From: Picocystis sp. L7
Lineage: Eukaryota > Chlorophyta > Picocystophyceae > Picocystales > Picocystaceae
Assembly: GCA_020975725.1 (NCBI GenBank)
Contig: QXJR01000028.1
Location: 496,001 to 560,000 of the forward strand
Direction of reading: 5' to 3'
DNA length: 64,000 nt
Both the position numbers and the translations under genes were made by a program. Under the pieces are notes generated by a model, which was not told where the DNA came from, made no database searches, and saw only the letters and a program-made list of their open reading frames with translations. This document shows positions 1,833 to 64,000 of the stretch, in pieces; the stretch's first letter is position 1, and each line of letters starts with the position of its first letter.

Positions 1833-3175
1833 GGACGCAGTCCCATCCACTCCAAATGGGGGCCCTGGCTCCACGGACTCTGTGGATGGGGCGATGAAAG
1901 AAAAGGGGCCTCTCTGTCGATTTCGTTGTACGAGCGCAGTTGTGCGTCGAGGATATATCGAGATCTTCGGTCGTGGTATCGAAATGTTCGCTGTTTTTCT
2001 TCCCCACCTTTTCTTCCGAAGTTGGCTGGATCGAAATCCATCCCAAGTCCACAAGATCCTTGGGAAAGTCTCCAGTGGTGTCGGAATTCCCAGGACCGTG
2101 CAGAGGACACGCCCTGCTGCGGATCGGCTGCCGAAATGGAACGGACGGACGAAGCGACCGAAACGATGCGAAACCGGCAAGCCACGACGTGCAAGCGATA
2201 TTCCGAGAGGATCGATCCATCGAACGTCTCGGAATGTCGCTCGCCGAAACAACCGCGGTTTCGAAGCCACGCTTGTTCCGAACGCGACGAAACATCCGCT
2301 CCGACACCGACAACAGCACACCGGAAGGAGGAGCGGTGCGAGGCATCTTTCGAAGGAGAACGTCGCGAGCTCTTGGTATTCCGCGAAACGGAAGGTAAAC
2401 CTGCCGTTATCGATGGATACTGATGCTTCCAACGAGGCGTTTGGACGCAAACCCTTCCACGCGTGGGCGCTCCAACTGGTCGACCTCGGTGATGGTGTCG
2501 GACAAGGAAGAGCGCGGTGGGCCTGATCGGCAGCCGGTGCGGGATTCGTACGAAACGTTTCGGAAGGCCCTTGGAGCGCAATCATCCCAAAGTTGTCAAG
2601 GCTGACGCCACTCACAAGTGGCCACAAGCACCGGCTTTGGAAAACCGAAGGAGATCCATTCGTCCAAACCAAGTTCGCGTCCGTGATGCCCACTTGTAAC
2701 GACCCATGGTCAGCGGCCTTGCTACACCATGCATCGACGGTGTAATGCGTGGTGGAGCAAGCCCGCTGCGGACGCATCGCCAAAGATCGCATCTCCGCAG
2801 ATGCGAGCCGGTCCTCTTCTGTCCGAGGTGGGTCGTCTGGAGTTGTTTCTCCTGAGCCTGGGGAGCGGGGAGAACTGGACCTCATGCAGCAGGATCTGCC
2901 AGGATCCGGCCAGAATCCCGCCAAAACGACCCGTGTGCGCTACGTACGGACGTGCACTCGCGCGGCGAGCTTCACGCAAGCGAAGAACGAACAGCGAGGG
3001 GAATGAAAGAAGGTGAGAGAGGAGAAGGGAGTGGAGGGCGAGGCACTCCTCGAAAAGGAGAACAACGCCAACTGCGCGAGAGAGAGGTGCTGACAAAAAA
3101 AATCATCTGCACCTGCAGGAAGTGAACACAGCCAAGGCACCATGCAGCGGAGTGATCATGTCTTGCGTACTTGCA
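1833..3175 (+). repeat. Left terminal inverted repeat of the MULE (1343 bp)
   Basis: Reverse complement of 6186-7528 with three visible substitutions and no gaps. It is GC-rich and has few stop codons in most frames, so several long overlapping open frames occur on both strands; these are not supported as genes. Its inner end covers the first 11 codons of the transposase gene (start at 3142), so the promoter of that gene must lie in the repeat. It also holds a mirror of the internal hairpin described for the right repeat, at 2191-2208 and 2227-2244. Confidence 0.95.
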
Positions 3176-6156
3176 ATAGAAACATATGTGCCATCGATGT
3201 CATTCAAGATGTATTTCAATTCAGTACAAAGAAGGAAGCTGCGAAGAAGCTTACCAAATACAAAGCCTTGAAGAAGAATGTTGCATTAAAGAGCCTCAAA
3301 TATGAAGCATTCATCAGCAAGGGGGGGAGGATAGCTTGCCTTGCAGCTATCTCATCTTGGTGTGATTTAATGTGCTTACTTCAGAGTTGCCGGGATAAGC
3401 ATTTGATAGTAAATTTCATGGAACGCAATGCCGTTCTTTTGCGCTCTACTTTGGGTGATGCGCCTGTGGTGGGCGAGCATGTACTCGAACGGACTCATGG
3501 GTTCGGAGCTAGCTCTTTACATCTTCTTCGGAGTTGTCAAGCTATAGCCTTGCATGAGAGCGCAATGCAAAATGAAGTACACTTGTTACCTTTGACAGAA
3601 TCTTTGTTCCTGGATGACCTCATTGATGACCTAGGCCAAGCTTTCAATCACAAGTACAACATTGAGAGATCAAAGTACAAGACTGAGGATTGCCTTAACG
3701 TTAGGTATATCCGACTAGCATGCCAGGCACGTGGGAAACCATCATCTAAAGTCAAGAAGAGAAGGGCGAAAGATTCCATCAAATGTGATTGCAAATCTGT
3801 GTGCACACTAAAAGGAAAGGTGGACGAGGACACGGGTCGTATACTTGTTTCTGACTTGCCCTTGTTATACTTCTGTCACTCACATGATTGCACATCTCCG
3901 CAATCTGGAATATTTCGACCTCTTCATCCTTCCCTTGAAATGTTCATCCTACAACACAAGTGCATGACTTTGCAAATGGGCGACCTTCAGCGCCTTTGTT
4001 GTGAGAAGGGATCATCTCTAGCCACTAATGGGAAGGAGGAAATTAGACTTGGTCCGGATGCCCGCTTCAAGCCAACAATAAATCAAATCAAGAATGTCCT
4101 AAAACGAGATGCATTGAAAACGTGGCGAAGAGGTAATGATCAAACTAATCTCAGAGCAAAAGGTTTGGGCATGGCAAAAGATGAAGACACCTTTGTTGTT
4201 TTCCGGGAAAGTAGAGAACGTCAACATGCAATTCATGGGAAGTTAGGGTTCTTCAGTCCATCCCACGACGGGCCAAAAAGTATTTGGGTTTATGGAGGTT
4301 TGAGGAAGGGTACCGTTCCTCATGTATCCTCGACAGTTTTGCCGTATGAACGACCACTTGCGTCTAGTCACACAAAGGGGCGGCAAAGATTTCTTTTCCT
4401 ATGGATGACGAGGCACGGAAAATACATGCTTGAGAAGTATGGTTGTTGGGTAGGCTTCGACTCTACATACCGTTTGAATATGTATGGGTTCCCTCTCTCC
4501 ATCCTGGTGGTTAAGACTAACATGGGCAATGCTTTCCCCGTGTGTTTTTACTTGTCTGACCTGGAAGACACAAGCACACATGAAGAGGCTATAGCTTTAG
4601 TGAAGTGGATTTGCCCTAACTGGCGCCCGGAGACAGTATTAAGCGATTGCGCCATGGAACTAGTTCACGCAGTAGAATCAAATTTTCCTCTAGCTACGTG
4701 CATTTGGTGCCATTTTCACGTGGAGCAAGCATTGTTGAGACATGTGAAGAAGAAGTACGTTAACGTAGGCAAAGAAGTTGAGAGGCAAAAGCTCATGAAA
4801 TTCATGCATGCACTTCTCTATGCAAAAACGAAGGTTGCGTTTGAGAACGTTGAATTGGAGTTCAAGCAGTACCTCAAGCATTTTGGATTCGAAGCGACCG
4901 AAAGATACTACCACCAATACTTGAAAAAGCATGAGATGCGGTGGGCGACCTATGCGCGAAACAAGAAGAGGTGTTGGGGTCATGTGAAGAGCATTAATAC
5001 CAACAACTTGAACGAGTCATTCAATGGTAAGCTAAAACAACAATTCGGTTTGAAAAGAAACAAATTGGTCACCTCCCTGGTCATGAAGCTCATGAATGTG
5101 GCCAAGATGTTCTGGACAGATTATGTGCATGCTAACACCATGCAAAGCAATCCATATCGAACGTTATATATTGAAGGGAACATTATCCCCACGAGAGATT
5201 TGTGCGTGGTAAGACGACCTGACATTGTGGTGAGGGCCCTTGCTACTAATCAAAAGAAAGGACAAACAAACAACTACACCATCACCCCAATCGATTCCTC
5301 CTTAGGACAGTCATGGTTGGTGTCAGGAAGCCGGTTTGTACAATACACTGTCAAGAATGATAGAAACTGTTGGACTTGCACATGCGTGGCTTCATCGAGA
5401 GCGAGAATCCCATGCCATCACATCTTTGCAACATTGCAGCATACAAAGATGGATTTCTGCAGTGTGGAACTCCTCGGTCCGCACTTTTGTATTGACGAAC
5501 AATGCGTAGACTGTCCTGATGGGCGCACATTAGGGGATGCGGTGACCTCTTGTGTAGACACATACGGCGTCTCCTGTCCACAAGATATGGGGGAAGAACC
5601 CACATATGCGCTTAGTATTTCTTCTCAGAGCCCTCTGAATGATGACGATGAGTCAAGGCAAGCGGTGATGGACCAGTTACGAGCATTGCGAAGCAACTTC
5701 TTCCAGGTGGCAAACCCGAATCCCACATCTCTCGCATTGTACAAAGGCGTGCTCAAAGTCGTTGAGGAGTACGCAATGACGGCAGCTCCTCATACTCAAT
5801 CAAGTACATCACATGCTCAGACTGAAATACTTGCCACGAGTAAGAGACTTTATGACTTTTGTATGGAAGGTGCCTCCAATGATCAGGTTACCCGCTTACA
5901 ACAATGCTTGCCATTGGTTGCTGCACTCCGAGAAGTGACGCAGGGTTCAGTGCCAACACTTGGGACGCCAAAGGTTGTCAAGAAAAGGAAGAGGCAGCAG
6001 GTGAGAGAATCACCACTGCTATCGATGGAGAAATTTGTTAAGACTCATCAGCAAACATATGCAGTGAATCAGAAAAACAAAGTCGTGCGCACATTGAGCC
6101 AGTCCCTAAATGACATACCGCTGAACCAAACATGCGAAAACCGCATACACAGTTAA
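3142..6156 (+). CDS. MULE transposase with SWIM zinc finger
   Basis: An uninterrupted 1004-residue Mutator-type transposase. The catalytic core shows the first acid in the segment VGFDSTYRLN (Asp440), the second in LSDCAME (Asp502) followed by the family CxxCHFH-like block (Cys520 onward), and the likely third acid in NLNESFNG (Glu625). A SWIM zinc finger follows at Cys746-x-Cys748-x9-Cys758-x-His760. A Lys-rich segment around residues 985-990 could be nuclear targeting. The ATG at 3142 lies inside the left terminal repeat; it is the first ATG of the frame and no better start is seen. Codon use is more AT-rich than in the neighbouring host genes and in its own terminal repeats. No intron is needed. 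The enzyme would bind the terminal repeats and move the element. Confidence 0.95.
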   Translation: MQRSDHVLRTCNRNICAIDVIQDVFQFSTKKEAAKKLTKYKALKKNVALKSLKYEAFISKGGRIACLAAISSWCDLMCLLQSCRDKHLIVNFMERNAVLLRSTLGDAPVVGEHVLERTHGFGASSLHLLRSCQAIALHESAMQNEVHLLPLTESLFLDDLIDDLGQAFNHKYNIERSKYKTEDCLNVRYIRLACQARGKPSSKVKKRRAKDSIKCDCKSVCTLKGKVDEDTGRILVSDLPLLYFCHSHDCTSPQSGIFRPLHPSLEMFILQHKCMTLQMGDLQRLCCEKGSSLATNGKEEIRLGPDARFKPTINQIKNVLKRDALKTWRRGNDQTNLRAKGLGMAKDEDTFVVFRESRERQHAIHGKLGFFSPSHDGPKSIWVYGGLRKGTVPHVSSTVLPYERPLASSHTKGRQRFLFLWMTRHGKYMLEKYGCWVGFDSTYRLNMYGFPLSILVVKTNMGNAFPVCFYLSDLEDTSTHEEAIALVKWICPNWRPETVLSDCAMELVHAVESNFPLATCIWCHFHVEQALLRHVKKKYVNVGKEVERQKLMKFMHALLYAKTKVAFENVELEFKQYLKHFGFEATERYYHQYLKKHEMRWATYARNKKRCWGHVKSINTNNLNESFNGKLKQQFGLKRNKLVTSLVMKLMNVAKMFWTDYVHANTMQSNPYRTLYIEGNIIPTRDLCVVRRPDIVVRALATNQKKGQTNNYTITPIDSSLGQSWLVSGSRFVQYTVKNDRNCWTCTCVASSRARIPCHHIFATLQHTKMDFCSVELLGPHFCIDEQCVDCPDGRTLGDAVTSCVDTYGVSCPQDMGEEPTYALSISSQSPLNDDDESRQAVMDQLRALRSNFFQVANPNPTSLALYKGVLKVVEEYAMTAAPHTQSSTSHAQTEILATSKRLYDFCMEGASNDQVTRLQQCLPLVAALREVTQGSVPTLGTPKVVKKRKRQQVRESPLLSMEKFVKTHQQTYAVNQKNKVVRTLSQSLNDIPLNQTCENRIHS

Positions 6157-6185
6157 TCAAACATTAATAAGGAAGACTAGCCTGC

Positions 6186-7528
6186 TGCAAGTACGCAAGA
6201 CATGATCACTCCGCTGCATGGTGCCTTGGCTGTGTTCACTTCCTGCAGGTGCAGATGATTTTTTTTGTCAGCACCTCTCTCTCGCGCAGTTGGCGTTGTT
6301 CTCCTTTTCGAGGAGTGCCTCGCCCTCCACTCCCTTCTCCTCTCTCACCTTCTTTCATTCCCCTCGCTGTTCGTTCTTCGCTTGCGTGAAGCTCGCCGCG
6401 CGAGTGCACGTCCGTACGTAGCGCACACGGGTCGTTTTGGCGGGATTCTGGCCGGATCCTGGCAGATCCTGCTGCATGAGGTCCAGTTCTCCCCGCTCCC
6501 CAGGCTCAGGAGAAACAACTCCAGACGACCCACCTCGGACAGAAGAGGACCGGCTCGCATCTGCGGAGATGCGATCTTTGGCGATGCGTCCGCAGCGGGC
6601 TTGCTCCACCACGCATTACACCGTCGATGCATGGTGTAGCAAGGCCGCTGACCATGGGTCGTTACAAGTGGGCATCACGGACGCGAACTTGGTTTGGACG
6701 AATGGATCTCCTTCGGTTTTCCAAAGCCGGTGCTTGTGGCCACTTGTGAGTGGCGTCAGCCTTGACGACTTTGGGATGATTGCGCTCCAAGGGCTTTCCG
6801 AAACGTTTCGTACGAATCCCGCACCGGCTGCCGATCAGGCCCACCGCGCTCTTCCTTGTCCGACACCATCACCGAGGTCGACCAGTTGGAGCGCCCACGC
6901 GTGGAAGGGTTTGCGTCCAAACGCCTCGTTGGAAGCATCAGTATCCATCGATAACGGCAGGTTTACCTTCCGTTTCGCGGAATACCAAGAGCTCGCGACG
7001 TTCTCCTTCGAAAGATGCCTCGCACCGCTCCTCCTTCCGGTGTGCTGTTGTCGGTGTCGGAGCGGATGTTTCGTCGCGTTCGGAACAAGCGTGGCTTCGA
7101 AACCGCGGTTGTTTCGGCGAGCGACATTCCGAGACGTTCGATGGATCGATCCTCTCGGAATATCGCTTGCACGTCGTGGCTTGCCGGTTTCGCATCGTTT
7201 CGGTCGCTTCGTCCGTCCGTTCCATTTCGGCAGCCGATCCGCAGCAGGGCGTGTCCTCTGCACGGTCCTGGGAATTCCGACACCACTGGGGACTTTCCCA
7301 AGGATCTTGTGGACTTGGGATGGATTTCGATCCAGCCAACTTCGGAAGAAAAGGTGGGGAAGAAAAACAGCGAACATTTCGATACCACGACCGAAGATCT
7401 CGATATATCCTCGACGCACAACTGCGCTCGTACAACGAAATCGACAGAGAGGCCCCTTTTCTTTCATCGCCCCATCCACAGAGTCCGTGGAGCCAGGGCC
7501 CCCATTTGGAGTGGATGGGACTGCGTCC
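6186..7528 (-). repeat. Right terminal inverted repeat of the MULE (1343 bp)
   Basis: Inverted copy of 1833-3175. Because the transposase start lies within the left copy, the same promoter region is present here pointing outward-to-inward from the right, reading antisense to the transposase. Open frames starting in this repeat (for example at 6437) run out through the right end into flanking DNA and mirror those of the left repeat. Confidence 0.95.
7117..7170. repeat. Imperfect hairpin inside the MULE terminal repeat
   Basis: Two 18-base arms, GCGAGCGACATTCCGAGA at 7117-7134 and its complement at 7153-7170, pair at 16 of 18 positions around an 18-base loop containing the palindrome GGATCGATCC. 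The same structure exists in the left repeat. Mutator transposases bind sub-terminal sites, so this could be a binding site, but that is inference. Confidence 0.6.
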
Positions 7529-10378: not shown

Positions 10379-11518
10379 CTAGTGAGAAACATAGTCCGCA
10401 TACCTCTCAGGTCTTTGGCGATCCCGCTTTTCGATCTCTTCCCAATTGATATCTGGTGCGAGCGTCGTCAACGCGTCGTGAAAGTTCTTCCCTGGTCCCA
10501 CCCCACCATGCCTGACAATTGCCCAGAACATACGTGGCGAAACTAAGGCCATTGCATCTGGCTTTAAATTCTTCCTTGCAACGGGGTCTTCATCGCAAGC
10601 AACCACTCTCAGGATTGCAGGAAGTAGCATGGCAGGTATCCCGGTAACTAATTCCTTCCTGGCTGCCCCCCTTGAGCCCACTTGGTACTCTATTTCCAAG
10701 CGGCCCGACCCGTCGCTGAGCTCCCGGAACTTGACACGACCTAGAAGTGCAGCAGATACCTTGCGATTCGCTTCGGATTCAGCACCAACTTTGGCCCTAG
10801 CCTCGCGCAGGGATTTTCTGAGCGACAAGTGTGCAGACTTTGTCAATTGACCTCCACCTCCTGCAGCAGCGTTGACCAAATCGGCTGCCATTCGATTCTC
10901 AACTTCCTTCATGGTGGAACTTTCGCTTCCTACCAAGGTGTTGTCTGCATCATTGTGTATGCTGTCATCTGCGTTCCCCAGTACCCTTCCTGTACCGGGC
11001 ATTCTACCAATGCGCCGTTTCTTGGGTTTCCTTTCCCCGGGACGAGCTTTGTCTGAAGCTTGAGGAGATGGGACCGGTGTCCCGGCAGCAGCACCTTGTG
11101 TTCGAATGGCTGTCGGGGTGGGCATATCATCTCGAATTGCCGCTCTCTTATTCTTCTTTTCAATGTCCACAGCCTCCTGTGCCCCATTGCTTGGGGGATT
11201 CGAGGATGCATCAGGTTCTTGCGGCGTGCCAATCGAATTGGAACCTCCACCTCCTCCATCTGTCCTCTCCAGGAAGATGGTTCCTTTGTCCAACAATCCA
11301 ATCTCCTCCAGCGTCTGGTTGTCTTTGTGCACACGTGGGAACACGTCTTGAGGTGGAAAACCAGCCCTTAGTTTCACTTTCTTCGCAGCCACACGTGTGA
11401 GCTTCCCTGCCAGCTTCGCCAGGTCCTTGACGGTGGTCTTTCCTCCTTGTTTCAGCTCCAGTTCCTCCACGTTCCCTTTCGGACCACGCACACGCAGCTT
11501 CCACTCCCCTCCTGCCAT
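10379..11518 (-). CDS. Ubiquitin-like (OTU1/UBX-type) domain protein with conserved-looking C terminus
   Basis: A 379-residue protein. Residues about 4-84 form a ubiquitin-like fold resembling the N-terminal domain of OTU1/YOD1, with a basic loop then GFPPQDVFPRV and a final GTIFLER strand. In OTU1 that domain contacts the Cdc48/p97 ATPase. No OTU protease domain follows. The middle (about 85-190) is low complexity with a basic KPKKRRIGR nuclear-signal-like patch. The last ~170 residues look folded and end in a helical segment with MFWAIVRHGGVG and WEEIEKRDRQRPERYADY, which I do not recognise by name. The start at 11518 (MAGGEWKL) places the domain at the N terminus as in OTU1; an in-frame ATG lies 22 codons upstream. 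A Cdc48/p97-linked or nuclear adaptor role is inference. Confidence 0.7.
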   Translation of the reverse strand: MAGGEWKLRVRGPKGNVEELELKQGGKTTVKDLAKLAGKLTRVAAKKVKLRAGFPPQDVFPRVHKDNQTLEEIGLLDKGTIFLERTDGGGGGSNSIGTPQEPDASSNPPSNGAQEAVDIEKKNKRAAIRDDMPTPTAIRTQGAAAGTPVPSPQASDKARPGERKPKKRRIGRMPGTGRVLGNADDSIHNDADNTLVGSESSTMKEVENRMAADLVNAAAGGGGQLTKSAHLSLRKSLREARAKVGAESEANRKVSAALLGRVKFRELSDGSGRLEIEYQVGSRGAARKELVTGIPAMLLPAILRVVACDEDPVARKNLKPDAMALVSPRMFWAIVRHGGVGPGKNFHDALTTLAPDINWEEIEKRDRQRPERYADYVSH

Positions 11519-12294
11519 CCCTGGGGACCTTCTTGAAGTGGTGTGGTGAACGGACCTTGGATCCCCTGAACACACGTCCACCATCGAGGGAGGATGAGGG
11601 AGAGGTTCCAGGCAGGGACCCAAACGCCAGAACCGACGATGGGAATGCCAAGACGGTTCGAACGAGCAAAGTGGCGACGATGAAGGGTTGCCTGCTTCCT
11701 CGAACGCGAGGTCGATGCCTGGGAATGCAGCAGGAGCGACTCGGACCCTCGACGTGCGATGGATAGGTCCGAAAACGCCGTCGCTAGGCAGGGAACTGGC
11801 GCGGTCGAAGGCTGCCTGCGTTCCGAAACACGAGGTGGAACCGTCCAGCGGCATCCAGCTCCATCCTCCAAGTCCTGGAGCGTGCGGAACGTACGTGCCG
11901 ATGGATCTCCGGGGACGAGGGAAGAAAAGAAATTGCACATGTCGCATCGTGTCGTCTTTCGAAGCCGGAGCTGGCCGCACGAGACCTCCTCGTACGACGA
12001 CGAGAAGGTGCATGCTGGTCGCAGACACTTCGCCTTCTGGACGCGGCGTTGCGTACAGGGCGCACGCAGTGAAGCGTTCCATCGTCTCGTGCGAAGAGAT
12101 CGGGACGAGCGCCGAGTAATAAAAGGAAAGCAAAACAGGTTCAATAATGTGTTCTATGGAAGCAAGTCCACAAGTCAAGCATGCGAGTCCCTATGCACAG
12201 TGGTAAGTGCCGTGCGTAAAATACTGCTGAGCATGTGCCAAGCTACAGTTGTTGCACCGTGGTGCCCTGTGCTCTTGTGCGAGGCAAGGAGGGT
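11519..12294. other. Intergenic between two minus-strand genes
   Basis: This stretch is the 5' flank of the ubiquitin-like gene and the 3' flank of the HMG-box gene. The first 600 bases are GC-rich and stop-poor in several frames, without any family match I can see. The open frame that runs upstream from the ubiquitin-like gene to 12178 is treated as leader. Confidence 0.5.
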
Positions 12295-37845: not shown

Positions 37846-39369
37846 CTATGGGATGCTTACTTCTGTTGTGTCCCTTTCATTTATGTCGTATTTGGTACCT
37901 GCCCCATCTGAAGACAGCTGAATTTCATCCTTTGCTGCGAAATAATTTGAGAAGGGCCACAACTGGTTGACTCTAGAGCCAACTTCCACCACGGAAGGAA
38001 GCAACGAGAGCAGTGCTTCCATTGCAACCTGCAGTTCATAGTAATGCAGACGAGCATGGGGTGTTGCTAGTTTATCATGCTCCAAGATGCGCTTGCCCAG
38101 ATCATCAGCGGTCAGCCTTGCGCTTCCATCTACTGCATCGACCACAACTCGGTAGCATTCTGCACGGATCAATTTTCTCCTCATATTGAAGCTATTCTGC
38201 AAGAATCTGCGTGCAGCGGCGTCAAATCTTGCCAAGTGATCGTTCGTGCAAGACTCGTAGGCCCTAAATTTGTCTGCAAGCAGTTGGAAAGTATTGCAGC
38301 ACTCTTCAACAAGTTCTGCCATGAGCTCTTCTCCTTGGACAATTTGAATAGCATATCGTAGAAAGCTGTCATAATCTATATTGGTTGATTCCGTGAGCAT
38401 ATCGATGACATAGCATGCCCTCCTCAACAGCTTCAGCATGGAAGCGACCTCCCGTACAGGAACTTTCCCGTTCCGTGGCCTTTTCGGGAAACACCATGGC
38501 AAATACACCTTGTGCTTGAAACATTGAAAGACCCCAATCTCCATACGTGCTGCTGGTAGCATGTTTTGAGCTTTGAGTATACGTGCTCGTATGTCGTCCA
38601 GTGCTTCGGACACTTGTTGAATTTTTTCTCGGCTCATCGGTGCTTGGATTGTATCCTCTGGATGAACGTGCTCCAAAGACAGGCGCACAACGTCTGCAAG
38701 CTTCTCCAGACTGATTGCGATATTTATATGTATCTTTTCTGCAGCACTTGCAGGATGAATGATACTGATAAATAGCCCGATCACAATGCCAAGAGTAATT
38801 CCAACCGTGCGGGTTGTAGCCACCTTCAGGACCTGCAGATTCGAATCTTCTTGTCCAACACCTGCCATGCTAACGATCAAGTATGTAACTCCACAGAGTG
38901 TTGTGCCGTACTGTACTTTTTTCACGGTCAAGCCCACCACGTATGTGACAAAGATCATCAGCCCTCCTATCAATGACATGTACCACACCTGGGGCAAGAT
39001 CAACCAACTCACGAGGGCGATTCCTGCACCGAGCACTGTGCCAAAGAACCTCAGCACACTCTTGACGGTTGCATCTCCAATGAGTGGTATGGTCACAAAC
39101 AACAAGGTGATTCCTGCCCATCGCAGAGAAGCACTCCATTGTTGTCCCCACGCCGATCCTTCTCTCAGGGAAGGGCTTCCGGACCAGAGTAGCAGCAGTC
39201 CGATGGCGGTTCCGAGGTACAGTCCGTGCACGACGTTCCATTTATTGGTGAAGGAGGTGGCAAGCGCTTTCCAGCACCGCTGTGCGTATCCCATCGCCAC
39301 GTCCCAGCCTCCTCCGCCCGCACGCACGCGGTCGGTGTCCTTGGACTCGACGCGTTTCGAGGCGGACAT
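37846..39369 (-). CDS. ALMT/FUSC-type membrane transport protein
   Basis: A 507-residue membrane protein of the aluminium-activated malate transporter/FUSC family, anion channels or efflux proteins. About six hydrophobic helices occupy residues 40-210, among them VVHGLYLGTAIGLLLLW, SLIGGLMIFVTYVVGL and TRTVGITLGIVIGLFISIIHP, followed by a long soluble helical C-terminal domain. This architecture (six helices then a cytosolic helical half) is that of plant ALMTs. Substrate and membrane are unknown. The ATG at 39369 (MSASKRVESK) is chosen because upstream sequence is GC-rich leader without membrane or targeting features. The gene is head to head with the GTPase gene, 315 bp apart. Confidence 0.8.
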   Translation of the reverse strand: MSASKRVESKDTDRVRAGGGGWDVAMGYAQRCWKALATSFTNKWNVVHGLYLGTAIGLLLLWSGSPSLREGSAWGQQWSASLRWAGITLLFVTIPLIGDATVKSVLRFFGTVLGAGIALVSWLILPQVWYMSLIGGLMIFVTYVVGLTVKKVQYGTTLCGVTYLIVSMAGVGQEDSNLQVLKVATTRTVGITLGIVIGLFISIIHPASAAEKIHINIAISLEKLADVVRLSLEHVHPEDTIQAPMSREKIQQVSEALDDIRARILKAQNMLPAARMEIGVFQCFKHKVYLPWCFPKRPRNGKVPVREVASMLKLLRRACYVIDMLTESTNIDYDSFLRYAIQIVQGEELMAELVEECCNTFQLLADKFRAYESCTNDHLARFDAAARRFLQNSFNMRRKLIRAECYRVVVDAVDGSARLTADDLGKRILEHDKLATPHARLHYYELQVAMEALLSLLPSVVEVGSRVNQLWPFSNYFAAKDEIQLSSDGAGTKYDINERDTTEVSIP

Positions 39370-39684
39370 CCACCGACGGTGTGGCGACGTTTCCACCACG
39401 AGCAAGGAGAGGCGTCCTTCAAGCGGTCCAGGTGATCCAGGTCGCGAGTAGGAGATGCTTTCGTCGAGCCACGGGATCCTTTCGGTCGGACCTCGCCTGC
39501 TTCGGCTTCTAATCGCACCCACGTGTCTTCCAGGCCGCCTTCGCCTCGATGCTCAATCGAGGCCACGAACCGACGTCGAACCGCTCCCCTTAACTTCGTC
39601 CGAGTTAACCCCAGTCGCCTCGCCTGGTTTCCATCGGCATTCCACCGTCGGCATCGCGCGACGTTCGAGCGGACGAATCCGACG
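39370..39684. promoter_or_regulatory. Divergent promoter region, ALMT-like and GTPase genes
   Basis: A 315-bp GC-rich gap between divergent start codons must hold both promoters. It is open in several frames; no named element identified. Confidence 0.5.
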
Positions 39685-41307
39685 ATGCGCGTCATGGCGA
39701 GGTGCCTCGTGCGGTTCTCGTCGTCCGTGAGAAGGCCTGGAAGGTCCACGAACCGCGCCTGGTGGTCCCTGCACGCGACAATGGCGGGGAAGAGGATGGA
39801 ACACGCCGCCAAGGGACGCACGCACGCACCAAACGCGGCCGAACCAGCCGCTGCTGCGGCATGGAGCGAAAGGAAGGCGCCTGAAAGGTGCCCAGGATGC
39901 GGCGTGAAGTTGCAAGACAGAAAGCCGGACATGCCTGGGTACTTCGTGCGTCCCAAAGACAAGACGGCGGATGCGACCGTGGTCGAGGACGAGTTCGACT
40001 CGAACTTCCAGAGCTCGGCCGCCACGGCGACGGTTACGAAGACGGACGAGGAACGAGGATCAGGAGAAGGAGACGAAGAACTGGACGTCGTCTGCGCGAG
40101 ATGTTACTCTTTGCAACACTATGGAAGGATCAAAAGCCTCGCCGCCGAATCGGAACTCCCCGGATTCGACCTGGAAAGAATCATTGGCAATCGGATTGCC
40201 AGAGAGAAAGGCAGGCGAGCGGTGATCTGCTGCGTGGTGGATGCGGCGGACTTCGACGCCTCCCTTCCCACCGAATCTCTGCGCGGTTTGTTGGTCAGTG
40301 CGAAGGTCCTGGAGGAAAGGGAGAACCGGCTGACCAGGGAGGGCAGGTCTGCCACACACGTCGTGCTGGCGGTGACCAAATCTGACCTGTTGCCCAAGCA
40401 ATGTGGATTGAAGAGGCTCGAAGGTTGGTACCGTCGGCGGTACAAGTCGCAAGATCTCCCTCCAGTTTCGGCCGTGTACCTCGTGAGTGCCCAGACAGGA
40501 ATGGGGATGCAAATGCTCCTGGAAGGGTTGGAGGAGCTTTGTGGCAAACTGGGCGACGTCTGGGTGATTGGCGCGCAAAATGCGGGGAAGTCTTCCTTGA
40601 TCAATGCAATGCACCGATGTGTGAGTGACGGGGCAATTACGAAACAGAGGGCGCTCACGGAGGCAGCCATCCCAGGAACAACCATAGGGGTGGTGCAGCT
40701 AAGCGGCATTTTGCCCACGGCCAGATGCCGCGTGTTCGACACGCCTGGAGTGCTGCACACGCATCAGATCACCACCTTGCTCTCTGCTGCAGAAGTTCGA
40801 ATGATACTCCCGAGAAGGGCACTGAAGCCCCGTACATTCAGGTGTGAAGTGGGGGGCTGCATCAGCCTGGGAGCTAGTGCACGGGTCGAAGTGGTATCCG
40901 CTCCCTCCTCTACGATTTACTTGACTTTTTGGGGTTCAGACGAGATTGTCTGTCATATGGGAAAAGCTGCGACTGCTCCTGAACTATGGAACAAGCACGC
41001 AGGCACATCATTGCAGCCTCCTGCTGGTGGAAAGGAGAGATTTGGGAAGCTCCCTGAATTGGAGGTGACGGAGATCGATGTTGTCGGAAACTCTTGGAGG
41101 GAAAGCTCTGTAGATGTCTGCATCGCAGGCTTCGGGTGGGTGGGTGTGGGCGTCACCAGAGAGTGCAAGCTCCGCGTTTGGACGTTTCCTTCCGTAGAAG
41201 TATCCACCCGGGAAGCCATGATACCAGATTTTGCTAAACAATTCGAGACGCCAGGCTTTACAAAATCTCTGCCCCAGAAGAAAAACAATAAGAAGACGAA
41301 ACATTGA
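39685..41307 (+). CDS. BPG2/YqeH-type circularly permuted GTPase (organellar)
   Basis: A 540-residue GTPase of the YqeH/BPG2/NOA1 group, which assist organellar small-ribosomal-subunit or rRNA maturation. An N-terminal zinc finger has CPGCGVKLQDRKPDMPGYF and a second Cys pair CARCYSLQHYG. The G motifs are permuted as in this family: TKSD (G4) and VSAQTG (G5) come before GAQNAGKSS (G1) and DTPG (G3). The C-terminal beta-rich domain keeps GNSWRESSVDVCIAGFGWVG. The basic start MRVMARCLVRFSSSVRR suggests import into mitochondria or plastid; closeness to plant BPG2 favours the plastid. The tail is Lys/Asn-rich. First in-frame ATG chosen. Confidence 0.9.
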   Translation: MRVMARCLVRFSSSVRRPGRSTNRAWWSLHATMAGKRMEHAAKGRTHAPNAAEPAAAAAWSERKAPERCPGCGVKLQDRKPDMPGYFVRPKDKTADATVVEDEFDSNFQSSAATATVTKTDEERGSGEGDEELDVVCARCYSLQHYGRIKSLAAESELPGFDLERIIGNRIAREKGRRAVICCVVDAADFDASLPTESLRGLLVSAKVLEERENRLTREGRSATHVVLAVTKSDLLPKQCGLKRLEGWYRRRYKSQDLPPVSAVYLVSAQTGMGMQMLLEGLEELCGKLGDVWVIGAQNAGKSSLINAMHRCVSDGAITKQRALTEAAIPGTTIGVVQLSGILPTARCRVFDTPGVLHTHQITTLLSAAEVRMILPRRALKPRTFRCEVGGCISLGASARVEVVSAPSSTIYLTFWGSDEIVCHMGKAATAPELWNKHAGTSLQPPAGGKERFGKLPELEVTEIDVVGNSWRESSVDVCIAGFGWVGVGVTRECKLRVWTFPSVEVSTREAMIPDFAKQFETPGFTKSLPQKKNNKKTKH

Positions 41308-45975: not shown

Positions 45976-48000
45976 ATGGACAGCACTGCTGTGCTGCTCG
46001 CCACCACGACGAGCGATGCGATATCTTCGGCCGAGGCCAGGGAAACGCAATCGATCGAGGTGTTTGCTGACCTCACGGGCATGGTTCCGCGCTTCGCCGC
46101 ACAGGTCGCCATTTGCTTGCGACGGAAGGTCGGAAGCAGGTGCTGGGGTGCCAAGTTGACAGTAGTTCGTGCTACGATGGATGGCGGAGGAGCCATGAAG
46201 GTGGGCGAATCTGTTCGAGAAACGACGAATGGGCCCAAGACCATCCTCTCACTAGGTGATTTGAATGCTCCCTTGTCTCCTCAGGCAAATGATGGAAACT
46301 TGTTGGATGGAGTAAAGCAGATCACGTCCAGCCTCGAAAATGCCAAGGATGCAGCCAGTGACTCCTTGTCAGGATTGGCGACGATGGTTTCAGAATCCAC
46401 TGCCAACACCCCCGCGTTATCCAAGTCCAAAGCCCTGTTGGAGCAGTCGCCCGCGTTTGCAGACTTTGAAGCATTTTCTTATGCCATATCCAATGCGATC
46501 CCAGATGAATTGAAAAATTCGATGGAAGCACTGGCACAGAACCCAACCAACCTTGCCTTTGCTGCATCCACGCTTCTTGGTCTTCCGTTAGTGGCATTCT
46601 GGTTGATCAGGTTTTACGGATACGGTGGAGACCTGACTCCCAAGAAGGCTTTGGGCACTTTGAATACAGGAAATGCGGTCCTGGTAGATATCCGATCGGA
46701 TGCCGAGAGGGCAGAGGGCATTCCAGATTTGAGATGGACAGCCAGAGGGCGTGGCGTTGCCTTTCCGGTGCTCAGTATGCAGGGCAAAGAAAGATCGATG
46801 ATTGCATCACCCAATGAGTTGGCACTTCAAGCCACCGCCGTTGCAATCGCTGGTCTTAGGCAGACATCTGGTGGTGGTCCAATTATTTTGATGGACAGGT
46901 CTGGCAATGGTGATGCTGTTTCTGTTGCAAAGCTTCTTGCACAACAAGGTCTCACCAACGTCTTTGCGGTGAAAGGAGGCTTCAAGTCTTGGAAGGCAAC
47001 TGGTCTTGATGTCAAGCAAGGTGTGTCTTCTTACCAAGAAGGTACTATCAAACTTGTCGCAGAGAAAGCTGGGGAAATTACAGAGGACATTAGCAAGGGC
47101 TTTGAATCAAAGTCCAGAGAAGTCCTGACCACACCTGTGCTTGCTCTCTATACTCTTGGTGTATTGGGGGTGGCATTGCTGGTTGCAACTGGGACATACA
47201 AAAAAGTACTAGAAACTGTGGGGGTCTTTGGCATCTCGACCACCGTTTTCTTGAGGGTAATAAGCTACAGGGATGCCTCAGAAGCGGCAAAGGATGTGGA
47301 CAAGTTGTTGAGAAGTGTGGGGATAAGGCTTCCAGAGATAAAGAGGAAGTTACGGAAAGCTTTGGTATCTTCTGGTGATACAGGCAAAGTTGCAACAACA
47401 GTCGAGTCATTCGTAGGGGACACTGGTTCCCTCGACAAGAACGTAGTTTCTGAACCTCTGCCGCCTGCTACATCTAACGTTGAGCCTGCTGAAACTACGC
47501 CCGACACCTCCCCTGGAGATGATGGGCTGCCTGATGTGGCCGAAGGGTCTAAAGCAGTTGCAGCTGCTGATCCTGAAGATTCTTCAGGAAGGAAGGCTGA
47601 AGTTCGGTCTTGGATAGAGAATTGGCGTGCTTTGCAGTCTCCTGCTTCTGTAAATGGCAGTGTGGATGTAGAGTCGCGTGTTGCAGAAGCAAGAGCTTGG
47701 ATTGCGAACTGGCGCGCAGAAAACACTCCTGCCGCCATGGAAGAACCAAACAATGAGGTATCGAAAAGCAAGGAGGAAGTGCGCTCTTGGATAGAGAATT
47801 GGCGTGCTTTGCAGTCTTCTGCTCCTGTAAAAGGCGGTGTGGATGAAGAGTCTCGTGTTGCAGAAGCGAGAGCTTGGATTGCGAACTGGCGTGCAGGAAA
47901 TACTCCTGCTGCCATGGAAGAACCAGAAAAAGAGGTATCGAATAGCAAAGAGGAAGTGCGCTCTTGGATAGACAATTGGAGACTGCAGCAAGAGAAGTAA
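45976..48000 (+). CDS. Thylakoid calcium-sensing receptor (CAS)-like protein with rhodanese domain and WIxNWR repeats
   Basis: A 674-residue homologue of CAS, a thylakoid membrane protein that in plants and Chlamydomonas links calcium to photosynthetic regulation and CO2-concentrating genes. A leader (about 1-65) with MVPRFAAQVAICLRRKVGSR resembles a transit peptide; ATG 46081 is an alternative start. Hydrophobic helix 1 is at about 192-212. The family hallmark GYGGDLTPKKAL then begins the rhodanese-like domain (about 212-345), which lacks an obvious catalytic cysteine. Two more hydrophobic stretches lie at about 386-404 and 409-427. The tail has five WIxNWR motifs (Trp546, 575, 605, 634, 664), alternating spacing 29 and 30 residues. 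Plant CAS ends soon after the rhodanese domain, so the tail is an addition. The CAS assignment is good; the role of the tail is unknown. Confidence 0.82.
   Translation: MDSTAVLLATTTSDAISSAEARETQSIEVFADLTGMVPRFAAQVAICLRRKVGSRCWGAKLTVVRATMDGGGAMKVGESVRETTNGPKTILSLGDLNAPLSPQANDGNLLDGVKQITSSLENAKDAASDSLSGLATMVSESTANTPALSKSKALLEQSPAFADFEAFSYAISNAIPDELKNSMEALAQNPTNLAFAASTLLGLPLVAFWLIRFYGYGGDLTPKKALGTLNTGNAVLVDIRSDAERAEGIPDLRWTARGRGVAFPVLSMQGKERSMIASPNELALQATAVAIAGLRQTSGGGPIILMDRSGNGDAVSVAKLLAQQGLTNVFAVKGGFKSWKATGLDVKQGVSSYQEGTIKLVAEKAGEITEDISKGFESKSREVLTTPVLALYTLGVLGVALLVATGTYKKVLETVGVFGISTTVFLRVISYRDASEAAKDVDKLLRSVGIRLPEIKRKLRKALVSSGDTGKVATTVESFVGDTGSLDKNVVSEPLPPATSNVEPAETTPDTSPGDDGLPDVAEGSKAVAAADPEDSSGRKAEVRSWIENWRALQSPASVNGSVDVESRVAEARAWIANWRAENTPAAMEEPNNEVSKSKEEVRSWIENWRALQSSAPVKGGVDEESRVAEARAWIANWRAGNTPAAMEEPEKEVSNSKEEVRSWIDNWRLQQEK
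47611..47997 (+). repeat. 177-bp tandem repeat encoding the WIxNWR tail
   Basis: Unit one is 47611-47787, unit two 47788-47964, and a third partial unit is 47965-47997. Each full unit encodes 59 residues with two motifs, WI(E)NWR and WI(A)NWR. The two full units are closely similar at the DNA level, so the duplication is fairly recent, while the half-units have diverged in sequence but keep the motif. Confidence 0.85.
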
Positions 48001-59158: not shown

Positions 59159-62100
59159 TCACTTCTTCAGTGCTTTGAGGACCTCCTTCCTTGTAGAGTT
59201 GTCCATGGCGGCCATGATATCCAGAACGAGAGAGATTGTCTTCTCATGCTTGGATGCACTGATCCATTTGCGAACGGACCTGGGATCTGACTCCAGCCAG
59301 GACAAGACCTTCAAGTTGTCCTTGGACTTATCCACTCCAAACTTCTTTTCTACCAACTCCGTTAACCCTCGCTTAGCCATTGCATGGTCGGCTCCAGGTA
59401 CCTCTGCCACATACTCCGATATGATACGTTCCTCAGCCAACCGGCGGCGCACTCTGAAGTAGAAGAACTCACGCGAGTCTTCCCATTTCAGGGCTTCACA
59501 GATGACACCCTTTGCCTTCATCCTACCGCTCCGGTCATGCAGATCAGCAAACTCGTGCGCAACCTGAAGATACAGAGGCAGCAGCTGCTTCTCTCTTTCT
59601 GCTATCTGCACTGAGTTGATTTGTGGGTCTTTGTCAAGTTCAATCAACCCAGGATCAAGCCTGTGCATGGTTCGAATCTGGTCCGCAGCCCTATACTTTA
59701 CTTCGCAAATACCTGGAGGCTCAAGGATACCACCCCTTGCTTCAGTATCAGCATACATCTCCATTTGCTCTACATTGATCGTCGGATCCACTACAACCCA
59801 AGCTCCGCCACGTAACTCTCCATTTGGAGGAATGTATATGAAGACAGGCTGACGATAGACGCGTAGTTGATCGACAATCATTGCTCCAAACTTGAGGATC
59901 TCTCCATACATGTCCCTTGTTCCACCACTAAAGCCACGCCAGTTGGCAAATATCATCAGTGGGAGGTTCTCCCCGTTGTTAAAATCTTGGATGGCCGTAG
60001 CAGTCTTGTAGGCGCTGTCGGGAAACCATACTTGACCAGCTTGCTGAAGAACAGTCTCTCGGGATTCAGGATTGGCAGGGTCTGCTGGGATCCTCTGTTC
60101 CATGAGCCTGGTTTCCACAGCAATGACTCCCATTGGTATACCTCCCAATCGAGCTCTACCTACCACAACACTTTTGCCCCATTCTTGCAATGTCTCTGTG
60201 AATGAGCCTTTGTCAAAGAACCCAGACAACCACGTACCGTCTTCTGCAATGTGGCCAGCTAGCATCGATCTTGGGTCATAGGGCGTTTTCGAAGGCTTGA
60301 ATGCAATCTTCCTGTTGGGCAAATCTGGAGTGACAGTTGGCACTGGCAGTGAAGATGCAGTTTTTGGCACGTAGCTAAGCCACTTGGTGATTGCTGCTAC
60401 ACCTTCTCTATCGTCTAAGACCTCCATGTGAGTGATTCCATTCGGCATCATGACCTGAGGCCCACCCAATTGGTCTTGCGAGGTGTACACTTCGCGTCCT
60501 AACAGCTTGTTAAGTGCCTGGTATCCTGTCAATATGAGAGGTCCATTCTGCATCTGAATAACCCTCTGCCCTAGACGACAGAGGTAAGCGCCTATCCCTA
60601 CGCTCCTGCCTGTGACATAACTCAAGGTAAAAGTTTCTGTGTACGCTGTGCTGGTCTCACCAGCGATCATTCCAGACCCCCGCAAGTTTTCTACCCCTAT
60701 ACCATGCGCCTGGCCAATAATATCTGTCAGCACCATTCTTACTTCTCCCGAGGATTCATCCAGTACCTTGCGGGCATTAACTGTTCCCTCTGGAAAACGG
60801 GCAAAGTCATCAGGTGTTAGGTAAAGATACTTGAAGCCGGCTGTTGGATTTGATTCATCATTCCAACCGACTTTGAAGTACGGTTTCACCTCCTCTACCA
60901 GTCCAATACGAGCACCACTATTACATGCCATGTAAATTCTTGGAAGAGCATTCATTCGAGCATACTCTGAAGCGGCTTTGAAGAAATCGTCTTCAAGAAC
61001 ACCAAAGGAACCACTTTGGACAGTGCAATCATTTGCAATCATGACAATTTCTCGTCCATCTGGGTACTCGGGAGTCTTGAGGAAGCAGTGCCAGGCAACC
61101 ATGCCAATTTGGTTCGTCCCAACAACACGGGATGGGTCCCTTGTAAGGCTACCCTCTTGTGACAGTATCAATTCTTCAGCCTTAAACAACTTGTCAAGAG
61201 GGGGCATTTGCATCTTTGCCGCACTACCTGTCTCATTCAGATATGTAGTCCAGTCCTGAACCAGCTGCTTCTCAACTAGACCCAGGAAGTCATAGCAGTA
61301 AGTTGTTCCGATTCGTCTGGCAGCTGCACGTTTCCGCTGGATGGTGCCTGTGATAGGGTAAGGGTCAAGGAAGCAAGTTCCATTGTCCTCCTCCCCGACC
61401 GTGCAGAATCTGATGGCTGCTCCAGTAACAGGGTTCAGCTCCTCCCTGTACATCTCCAACTTCAGCCACTGCCCTGACATTGACGACGCCATAAGGCGAA
61501 TGGGCACAATGCCTGAACCAATATCGCACCTAAGCCTGACCTCAATCTCGTCGACACGCAACTTCAGCAGCTCATTGGTGTTTGCGGTAATAAAGCCTCT
61601 CATCACATCGCGCAACTTACCAACCACTCCCTCCTATGCAGAAAACGAACAATTCCTTAGCTTGTGCTCATCAACAAACCGCGCATCCGCAAATATCCGC
61701 AAGTCAAACGCAACGTGCCTCAAAATCTTTGTCTTTCAACTCAGGAAGCACATTGAGATATAGTCGTGTAGACGAAGTTTGCTGTGCCCTTGGATCAAGC
61801 ATGGCTAGCTGTAACGCATCGATTGCCTTCGCCAATATGCGCTCTAGCCCACCTTTCGCGATATCTCTACTATGACTGATGCGTCGCAACAACAGGTGAA
61901 AGGGCCTCAGGTTTCTCCTCCCTCCATCTTCTTCGAGCTTCCCCTGTCCAACATAAATGTGAAGATCCCTGTTCACAGTAGCGATTCTTTCCAGGTCATA
62001 GTTTTTCAAACGCGACAGTTCTAATAGATGCGCCACAGTAGGCCGTGAACCGCGGTAAAGAGGATCTTCCTCATAATCACGGGCCATAGTAAACGTGTTG

Positions 62101-64000
62101 TAACGAGGTAGCTGCAACTTCTTGTACGCTAGGGTGTTCACAAACTTCACGCCTAACCGCACCAGTTCATTTTTGTATGGATGGAGGAGTTCAGCAACTT
62201 GTAATGCAATGTCTGTGTTATTATCTTCACTGTTCATGGCAATATGGAGGACGTTCACAGGGTCCACCCATGTTGACAAGTCCATGTCATCTGGGCAGTG
62301 AACCTCTAGGCTCCGACGGTATGCTTCCAGCACCTTGGGCATTCGGTCTTTCAGGTCATGCAAATCTTTAAGGACTGCAAGCATCCCGTATCGAACGGGC
62401 GAGATATCTATAGGAGTGTCCCGAAATCGGAAGGACCATTTCACAAGCATCGGATAGTCGCCATCCTGCTCAATAGTGTCCAAAGCCAGCATGTTGTGTG
62501 CACGATAGACCCTTTTCACGTATACTTCTAGAGCAGCCCTGTGCACCACCACGTTGTCATCCTCAAACAAGCTGGGGAGTAGATCTACAGCAAGAGTGGG
62601 GGACTCCACAAGGGCCTGCAAGTCACCTTTGGGAGCACTCCCCCACTTTCTCTTCAGCGCCTTCTTGCCTACGAGGAAATCCCGAAGCTCTGCTAATCTA
62701 ACATCAATGGGAGGAAGCCGCTTCTCAAGTAAGGTATTGGACGCCCTCAGAGCAACCTCTCCGTATTCCTTGCCACGGAGCTTAGCAAGCCTTTCGAGTG
62801 CAGATACCATACCAGAGGAAAGTTTTGCATGGTCATCAGCCCAGCCGATCGGCCCATAACTCTGCATTCCACCAGCGCAACGTTGGGGAAGTGTTGGTAG
62901 CTGCCGCAGAATGCTCAGCATCAAGTTGTTCCGATCTTCGATGTGAAGATGAGCAACAACGGTAGAAGTGACAGTGTTCAAGCTATCTGGGTTAGCCTTC
63001 ACTAAGGCTTTGACTGCAGCGTCGAAAGACTTGCCAGCAAACTGTTCTTCCACTACAAGGTATCTTTCAAAGATGTCTGTCAGTATGTTCACTGCATTTC
63101 CCCATAGACCTTGAGAGTAGTTCTCGCACAAAATACGGATTGGCTCCAATGCAGGAAGATTAAGCGCAGCAACTTCCTTGCTCAACAGAAGAAGATCCTC
63201 CCCACTGCTTGCTGACAAGGACTCCAGTCTGGACACAATCCATGCAGGAACCTTGTTGCCTGCTGCTGCGCAAGCATCCTTAGCTGACAACGGAAACAAG
63301 GCTGGGTCGCAGAGGGTTGCAAGCAGTCTCTGAACTGCTGATTCCCCATCCCATGTGTAGCCATCAAGTATCAATTTGACATCTTCCAAAGAGCGTTTAA
63401 ATGCAGCTAATGTGTCCCAACTGGACGACAGCTTCTGATCATCCACCCCTTCTCCAACGGGGTAGAATCTTCCAGTGAATGGTATAATCTTTTTCGCCTT
63501 GCTGGGGTTCGCTAGTTCCAGTTCAGCTAGCAGTTCACCAGCGTCGATTATGCTACCTGGTGGCTTGTTGTAAGATATTTTCCCGGTTTCTGGAGCTACT
63601 AGAGGCATGACCATTTTCATTGCCTCTACTTCCGCGTAAGGCTTTCCTTTCTCCACCATTGAGCCTTCCGGCTGCAAATATCGAACAATCTTGCCAGTGA
63701 CATCAGAGCGACATTCAGACGGGTCGAACTGGATAGGTACAAGGCAAGTCGTGCCATCCAGAACCATTCGCAAGCCAAGGGGCTCTTCCATTCCTGAAAT
63801 CCTGTGTGATGAACCACCAAAAATTGTAAGTAGAGTGCCATCGGATTGCTCACGGACTTTGGCATCAACAACGTTTGTTCCAAGTTTAAGTCTGAAAGCA
63901 TCTGGACCCGAGCGAGTGACATTGAACAAATACTTGATGTCTTGGTATACTATCTCCATTTCAAATTGGGTTTTGAGTGAGGAGACAGAGATTTGACCCC
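59159..64000 (-). CDS. ACC1: Multidomain (homomeric) acetyl-CoA carboxylase, C-terminal two thirds (partial)
   Basis: Acetyl-CoA carboxylase makes malonyl-CoA, the first step of fatty acid synthesis. This window holds the biotin carrier domain, central domain and carboxyltransferase; the biotin carboxylase domain lies beyond the right edge, into which the frame stays open. The biotinyl lysine is in VEAMKMVM (codon 63615-63617). The carboxyltransferase shows YLYLTPDDF, NLRGSGMIAGETS, LGREVYTSQDQLGGPQVM, TPYDPRSMLAGH and FANWRGFSGGTRDMYGE. Exons are 64000-61710 and 61633-59159; the 76-nt intron (GTTTGA to CATAG) joins DFEARC to EGVVGKLRDV and restores the family spacing. The donor is weaker than others here. 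This eukaryotic form may be cytosolic or plastid; the N terminus needed to judge is missing. Confidence 0.95.
61634..61709 (-). other. Intron of acetyl-CoA carboxylase
   Basis: 76 nt, donor GTTTGA, acceptor GCATAG. The upstream exon meets a stop inside it, and the downstream exon is open in phase only after removal. The exact donor could be a few codons upstream. Confidence 0.75.

Follow-up and report, generated by a model that had tools for sequence, protein, structure and literature searches.

A 64,000-nucleotide stretch of contig QXJR01000028.1 from the green alga Picocystis sp. L7, referred to here as the window, contains a 674-codon open reading frame (ORF) whose predicted product combines a transmembrane (TM) helix, a rhodanese-like domain, a hydrophobic hairpin, and a C-terminal tail with five copies of the motif WIxNWR. 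We propose that this protein is a plastid membrane tether, built in the same domain order as RBMP2 (Cre09.g416850), a pyrenoid membrane-shaping protein of Chlamydomonas reinhardtii, and that its tail carries helical stickers on a flexible stromal chain; we assign this reading a probability of about one half. The proposal draws on the conservation of the motif within a diverging repeat array and on the published layout of RBMP2. A preliminary description of the same DNA had listed a hydrophobic helix, the sequence GYGGDLTP, a rhodanese-like domain, a further hairpin, and five WIxNWR motifs at alternating 29/30-residue spacing, and all of these elements are found in the 674-codon frame.

The repeat tail and its conservation

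The tail array consists of two full 177-nt units followed by a fifth half-unit, in agreement with the 59-residue tandem unit described preliminarily. Each motif was located by motif scan and falls on a helix in two single-sequence structure models:

47589..47765, forward strand: 177-nt (59-amino-acid) tandem unit, copy 1
47766..47942, forward strand: 177-nt (59-amino-acid) tandem unit, copy 2, 89% identical to copy 1
47611..47628, forward strand: motif 1, WIENWR, residues 546-551
47698..47715, forward strand: motif 2, WIANWR, residues 575-580
47788..47805, forward strand: motif 3, WIENWR, residues 605-610
47875..47892, forward strand: motif 4, WIANWR, residues 634-639
47965..47982, forward strand: motif 5, WIDNWR, residues 664-669, followed by five residues

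The motif starts are spaced by 29, 30, 29, and 30 residues, and the Tandem Repeats Finder score of the array is 629, against 40-61 for the other seven rows in the window. A six-frame scan of the 64-kb window with the pattern W[ILV]x[ND]W[RK] returned the five tail motifs and no others, while the looser pattern W[ILVMF]xxW[RK] added a single occurrence, located in a 113-residue frame.

Between the two full copies, 17 of 58 codons differ, with an amino acid change in 10 of them, corresponding to a synonymous divergence (dS) of 0.22 and a nonsynonymous divergence (dN) of 0.09. None of these 10 changes falls within the 12 core codons of the motif (chance about 0.08), and none falls within the 22 codons of a longer helix face (chance about 0.005, for a region picked post hoc). 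The older divergence, that of the two half-unit types over 14 codons, tells more: there, the proportion of synonymous differences (pS) was 0.72-1.02, near saturation in all six pairs, and the proportion of nonsynonymous differences (pN) was 0.21-0.36. Because the string E.R.WI.NWR is identical in 5/5 copies while the synonymous sites of the half-units are near saturation, the array suggests that the motif core has been under purifying selection and that the spacers have drifted.

In both single-sequence models all five motifs are helical and the intervening stretches are coil, and each modelled helix presents a face formed by Trp, Ile, and Trp. The lipid-binding discriminant of the five tail helices, calculated by the HeliQuest formula, ranges from 0.20 to 0.76. 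Database comparisons of the tail returned little: a search of solved structures gave one match, to an RNase H (E 0.47), and none with the five-unit profile; NCBIfam gave four unrelated families, all below cutoff; and none of the 208 candidates obtained with the tail alignment among viral contigs was confirmed. A literature search with six related strings turned up no WIxNWR-like enzyme-docking motif; the papers that matched, judged by title and abstract, do not concern plastids.

Domain layout and genomic surroundings

The remaining parts of the protein are as follows:

45976..48000, forward strand: whole ORF, 674 amino acids, no internal stop
46081..46176, forward strand: putative chloroplast transit peptide, residues 36-67 (read from the translation: basic, no acidic residue, VVRAT end)
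46294..46536, forward strand: helical N-terminal region preceding the first TM helix, residues 107-187 (AlphaFold2 single-sequence helices)
46549..46617, forward strand: first TM helix, residues 192-214 (Kyte-Doolittle maximum 2.1 over 19 residues)
46615..47010, forward strand: rhodanese-like domain, residues 214-345 (matches to PF00581 and to PDB chain 8tfs_A)
46894..46896, forward strand: Asp307, aligned by phmmer with the catalytic Cys of GlpE (1gmx)
47122..47187, forward strand: hairpin arm 1, the second hydrophobic helix, residues 383-404 (Kyte-Doolittle maximum 2.16)
47206..47265, forward strand: hairpin arm 2, the third hydrophobic helix, residues 411-430 (Kyte-Doolittle 1.66 for residues 411-429)
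47302..47361, forward strand: cationic amphipathic helix directly after the hairpin, residues 443-462 (lipid-binding discriminant D 2.44)
47386..47580, forward strand: acidic proline-rich linker, residues 471-535 (14 acidic and 3 basic residues)

The true start is likely to be Met36 (window position 46081), since the residues downstream of it resemble a chloroplast transit peptide and the preceding 35 do not; residues 36-67 are probably the transit peptide itself. From its length, the product would have a size of about 70 kDa. Its coding score is 89, the fourth highest in the window (the top three are 95, 93, and 91), although the gene was itself part of the set on which the codon score was trained. 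TGTAA, the polyadenylation signal of Chlamydomonas relatives, occurs within 600 bases downstream of one of 14 window genes, namely this one, and AATAAA was found in that range for none of the 14; gene ends are approximate in both counts.

Residues 68-191 contain 16 acidic and 8 basic residues, and within them residues 107-187 form helices of low confidence in the single-sequence AlphaFold2 model, with a predicted local distance difference test (pLDDT) value of about 31-37, and are moderately amphipathic in several places, with a hydrophobic moment of at most 0.51. Hydrophobic helices were called where the Kyte-Doolittle average exceeded 1.5 over 19-residue windows, which marked residues 192-214, 382-408, and 411-429. 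The support for the second hairpin arm is marginal, being a single window above the threshold; the low-confidence AlphaFold2 model places helices at residues 385-404 and 408-430.

The first helix is followed by GYGGDLTP and then by the rhodanese-like domain. PF00581 matches residues 221-341 (E 2.5e-8), with no other Pfam family listed at E 5 or below, and PDB chain 8tfs_A matches residues 214-345 (E 1e-16) with 37% identity over the aligned part of that chain. The NCBIfam GlpE model matches the same region (E 2.7e-5), and all NCBIfam matches of the whole protein, to GlpE, MoeB, and a rhodanese-related family, lie below cutoff. The phmmer match to GlpE (1gmx) is weak (E 0.1); in it, Asp307 stands opposite the Cys of MCYHGNS, the catalytic residue of rhodaneses. 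With Asp in place of Cys, the domain is probably no sulfurtransferase. Among genome contigs, the rhodanese alignment yielded three loci from 74 candidates, two from Cellvibrio and one from Consotaella, at 27-33% identity, and no algal or cyanobacterial locus; in viral contigs, none of 5 candidates for the whole protein and none of 15 for the rhodanese alignment was confirmed.

No other part of the protein scores as high in lipid-binding discriminant as the strongly cationic helix at residues 443-462, which could help in bending or reading the membrane surface. Residues 430-470 hold 10 basic and 6 acidic residues, and this positive charge after the hairpin suggests that the tail lies on the stromal side.

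The window has a GC content of about 50%, and several of its long genes look single-exon, among them seemingly one for a FUSC/ALMT-family membrane protein (37846-39522). A YqeH-like GTPase gene (39523-41307), assigned by family match, has a zinc-finger-like CxxC region recognized by reading. Positions 1833-7528 resemble a Mutator-like element whose terminal repeats are long and recent: two inverted arms, each 1343 nt long (1833-3175 and 6186-7528; 100% complementary), flank an ORF (3142-6156) that encodes a MULE transposase domain, and a RabGAP-TBC gene adjoins the element. Two adjoining minus-strand frames at 59159-63959 read as a homomeric acetyl-CoA carboxylase, and the gap of about 76-82 bases between them is probably one short intron. 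The product of 10388-11521 weakly matches an OTU1 ubiquitin-like domain (E 7.3e-5). A proteasome subunit is closest to chain 7qve_u, presumably of spinach (264.7 bits; next 207.6), and a centrin is closest to 3kf9_A (217.5 bits), ahead of centrin-2 chains (210-213) and 3qrx_A (190.3). The proteasome subunit and the CAS-like gene point to the green lineage, for which the centrin tells less; the GC content, the single-exon look of several long genes, and the rarity of TGTAA downstream of genes weigh weakly against a close relative of Chlamydomonas. The window also has a Clp protease gene and a gene for a dehydrogenase E1 subunit, both putatively plastid-type by reading.

The proposed tether and its alternatives

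In the proposed model, a nuclear-encoded protein would be targeted to the plastid, where one helix and the hairpin would anchor it in the membrane of thylakoids or pyrenoid tubules, and its rhodanese domain may act as a protein-docking or membrane-organizing module. A flexible acidic linker would lead from the hairpin to five short helices spaced by about 30 residues, each with the conserved face E-x-R-x-W-I-x-N-W-R; these would act as weak stickers that jointly hold a repetitive stromal partner at the membrane by multivalent binding, through a lineage-specific motif distinct from the Volvocalean one. The modelled helices and coil, the low lipid-binding discriminants, and the positive charge after the hairpin together favour a flexible stromal tail that bears weak helical stickers. 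The preliminary description had already suggested a multivalent tether; the general idea is retained as a proposal, given the RBMP2-like architecture and the conserved motif in drifting spacers.

Rubisco is, tentatively, the most likely single partner, and it leads because of the analogy with RBMP2 and nothing else. A more specific version is doubtful: in this alga outside the Volvocales, the RBMP2 membrane module may have been kept, while E-x-R-x-W-I-x-N-W-R stickers bind the alga's own Rubisco elsewhere on its surface. If this were true, the membrane-to-matrix tether would be older in green pyrenoids than the Chlamydomonas motif, and the stickers would have been replaced as Rubisco and its linkers diverged. 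PMC10473226 reports that the Volvocalean Rubisco-binding motif (RBM) has not been seen outside that lineage, and poses as an open question whether other pyrenoids follow this principle by means of other motifs. The gene described here is a concrete candidate: its product would join an RBMP2-like anchor to a sticker of about 16 residues that is well defined and differs from the RBM.

Several observations weigh against the proposed model. The published consensus of the RBM is [D/N]W[R/K]xx[L/I/V/A] (PMC8320531), with related forms given as WRVDI for KEY1 (PMC13086578) and WRXXL in a transporter paper (PMC12056506). As the preliminary description had noted, the tail motifs lack the final hydrophobic residue: the NWR core is present in 5/5 copies and the full consensus in 0/5. 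They were accordingly rejected as canonical RBMs. In the EPYC1 peptides of 7jfo and 7jsx, whose aligned parts are TRSVLPANWRQELESLRN and SRSALPSNWKQELESLRS, a Leu stands four residues after the Trp, where the tail has Gln or Asn. In EPYC1 the NWR is preceded by Pro and most of the helix comes after it, whereas in the models of the tail the helix ends close to the NWR. CsLinker of Chlorella sorokiniana binds the Rubisco large subunit through E169, F173, L174, R176, and K177 (PMC11570498), and its basic pair at +3/+4 is matched in 0/5 tail copies, which have Asn and Trp there and a basic residue at +5. The tail is acidic (isoelectric point 4.84 for residues 560-674; 24 acidic and 20 basic residues in 536-674), the model confidence is low (mean pLDDT 37.3 for the protein and 52.6 for the tail), and the selection estimates rest on few sites, namely 7.5 synonymous and 11.5 amino acid changes. 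The likeness to RBMP2 is one of domain order as published, and RBMP2, at 165 kDa, is far larger than the 674-residue protein. Furthermore, RBMP2 deprived of all six RBMs stays at the Chlamydomonas pyrenoid centre, and a network resembling the reticulated region remains. The RBMs of RBMP2 are therefore dispensable in this respect and such a tail need not be essential, although they may still contribute in unresolved ways.

Another partner has a modest chance of being the right one: the tail could hold a stromal enzyme other than Rubisco by multivalent binding, in the way that TROL and TIC62 attach ferredoxin-NADP reductase (FNR) to plant thylakoids. TROL (AT4G01050) is listed as a thylakoid rhodanese-like protein with an FNR docking site (PMC4854468), and the tail motif lies outside both published Rubisco-binding modes compared, RBM and CsLinker. 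According to a 2017 paper, orthologues of the plant FNR tethers had not been identified in Chlamydomonas, so an algal counterpart would be an unknown one. The literature search for enzyme-docking motifs, negative as given above, speaks against this alternative, as does the FNR-docking proline-serine pattern PPxSPxP, which was not found in the protein; an FNR tether by that motif was therefore set aside. Were the partner another enzyme, the protein would still be a plastid membrane tether for which no description was found in the literature searched.

It is unlikely that the five helices, without any soluble partner, serve to cluster the protein and bend the membrane by binding one another or the surface of the membrane. 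The Trp, Ile, Trp face of each helix would suit such a role, and in RBMP2 the tubule shape needs the rhodanese, membrane-contact, and TM regions and not the RBMs. However, the discriminants of the tail helices lie under those of the EPYC1 peptides (0.66 and 0.67) in four of five cases and slightly over them in one, and far under the value for residues 443-462, so that the helices appear weak as membrane binders; the predicted template modelling score of the single-sequence tail model, 0.23, is weak evidence in the same direction, no packed bundle being predicted. Quite improbable is a protein that simply belongs to a thylakoid rhodanese orthologue group of the green lineage, maybe the one that includes Arabidopsis AT3G59780, and whose lineage-specific repeat tail does little: PMC4854468 lists AT3G59780 among chloroplast rhodaneses and gives it location code T, taken as thylakoid, and slippage can spread repeat tails, but the motif core has stayed constant while synonymous sites approached saturation between half-unit types. 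An annotation or assembly artefact, or a tail that is spliced out, has a negligible probability, given one open frame from the rhodanese domain to the last motif, a unit-to-unit dN/dS of 0.41 that, on few sites, leans against amino acid change, and the high coding bias of the gene, with the above reservation as to training.

Comparison with known plastid proteins

The tether proposed here resembles EPYC1 in the repetition of short elements with an N-W-R core along a stretch that appears disordered in low-confidence models. It shares with CsLinker a Glu four residues before an aromatic-aliphatic pair (E, W, I) in 5/5 copies, a slight resemblance that could be a chance match. The spacing of 29-30 residues falls within the 20-120 residues treated as feasible for cross-linking Rubisco in the FLIPPer linker pipeline, with the disorder again guessed from low-confidence models. 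Unlike EPYC1, the protein is predicted to be membrane-anchored and its tail is acidic, which also bears on its likeness to FLIPPer-type linkers (EPYC1, CsLinker). Outside this gene, two strict RBM matches turn up in the six-frame translation of the window, in stretches of 17 and 212 residues, the latter antisense to the YqeH-like gene, and both are taken as chance.

CAS (At5g23060 in Arabidopsis, Cre12.g497300 in Chlamydomonas) is described as having an N-terminal domain, one predicted TM helix, and a non-catalytic rhodanese domain, with CAS-like proteins throughout Viridiplantae and no CAS orthologue reported in cyanobacteria, red algae, or glaucophytes (PMC6682602). The Picocystis protein shares these three parts with CAS; beyond the rhodanese domain, where CAS has a short variable end, it continues with the two hydrophobic helices of the hairpin and the repeat tail. 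Orthology to CAS, the first reading, was abandoned because of the hairpin and the repeat tail, which depart from the single-TM topology of CAS. The rhodaneses of CAS and RBMP2 both lack the catalytic Cys (PMC10473203), and Asp307 therefore cannot separate the two. Of the preliminary view of a CAS homologue extended by a hairpin, the rhodanese type stands, and the protein is better called CAS/RBMP2-type, with a hairpin that RBMP2 also has; the published RBMP2 hairpin means that the one found here is not a new extension. The coupling of calcium sensing to CO2 fixation suggested earlier is not supported: nothing in the protein indicates calcium binding, and the topology is not that of CAS.

AT3G59780 presumably also has a hairpin after its rhodanese domain. 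TROL is likewise a rhodanese-like membrane protein, and its docking site for a stromal enzyme parallels the proposed tether. To our knowledge, TROL carries no such repeats, and, unlike TROL and TIC62, the Picocystis protein has no PPxSPxP.

The closest parallel is with RBMP2, for which literature searches returned no named homologue or orthologue, "RBMP2-like" being used for a mutant phenotype; among the matches listed in a search on RBMP2 and other lineages, only a 2023 review mentions the protein. Its published layout comprises a helical N-terminal region, a TM helix, a rhodanese domain with Asp for Cys, two hydrophobic helices, and repeated C-terminal Rubisco-binding motifs (PMC13345187). 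The tail described here differs in holding five motifs rather than six and in having none that fits the RBM consensus. By that layout, the two proteins share the same order of parts (TM helix, rhodanese domain, two further TM helices, and repeat tail), a probably non-catalytic rhodanese with Asp at the Cys position (D307, by the weak alignment above), residues 107-187 placed as the helical membrane-contact (MCP) region of RBMP2, and repeated W-R motifs at the C-terminus of a long tail, and it is plausible by this analogy that the Picocystis protein works like RBMP2.

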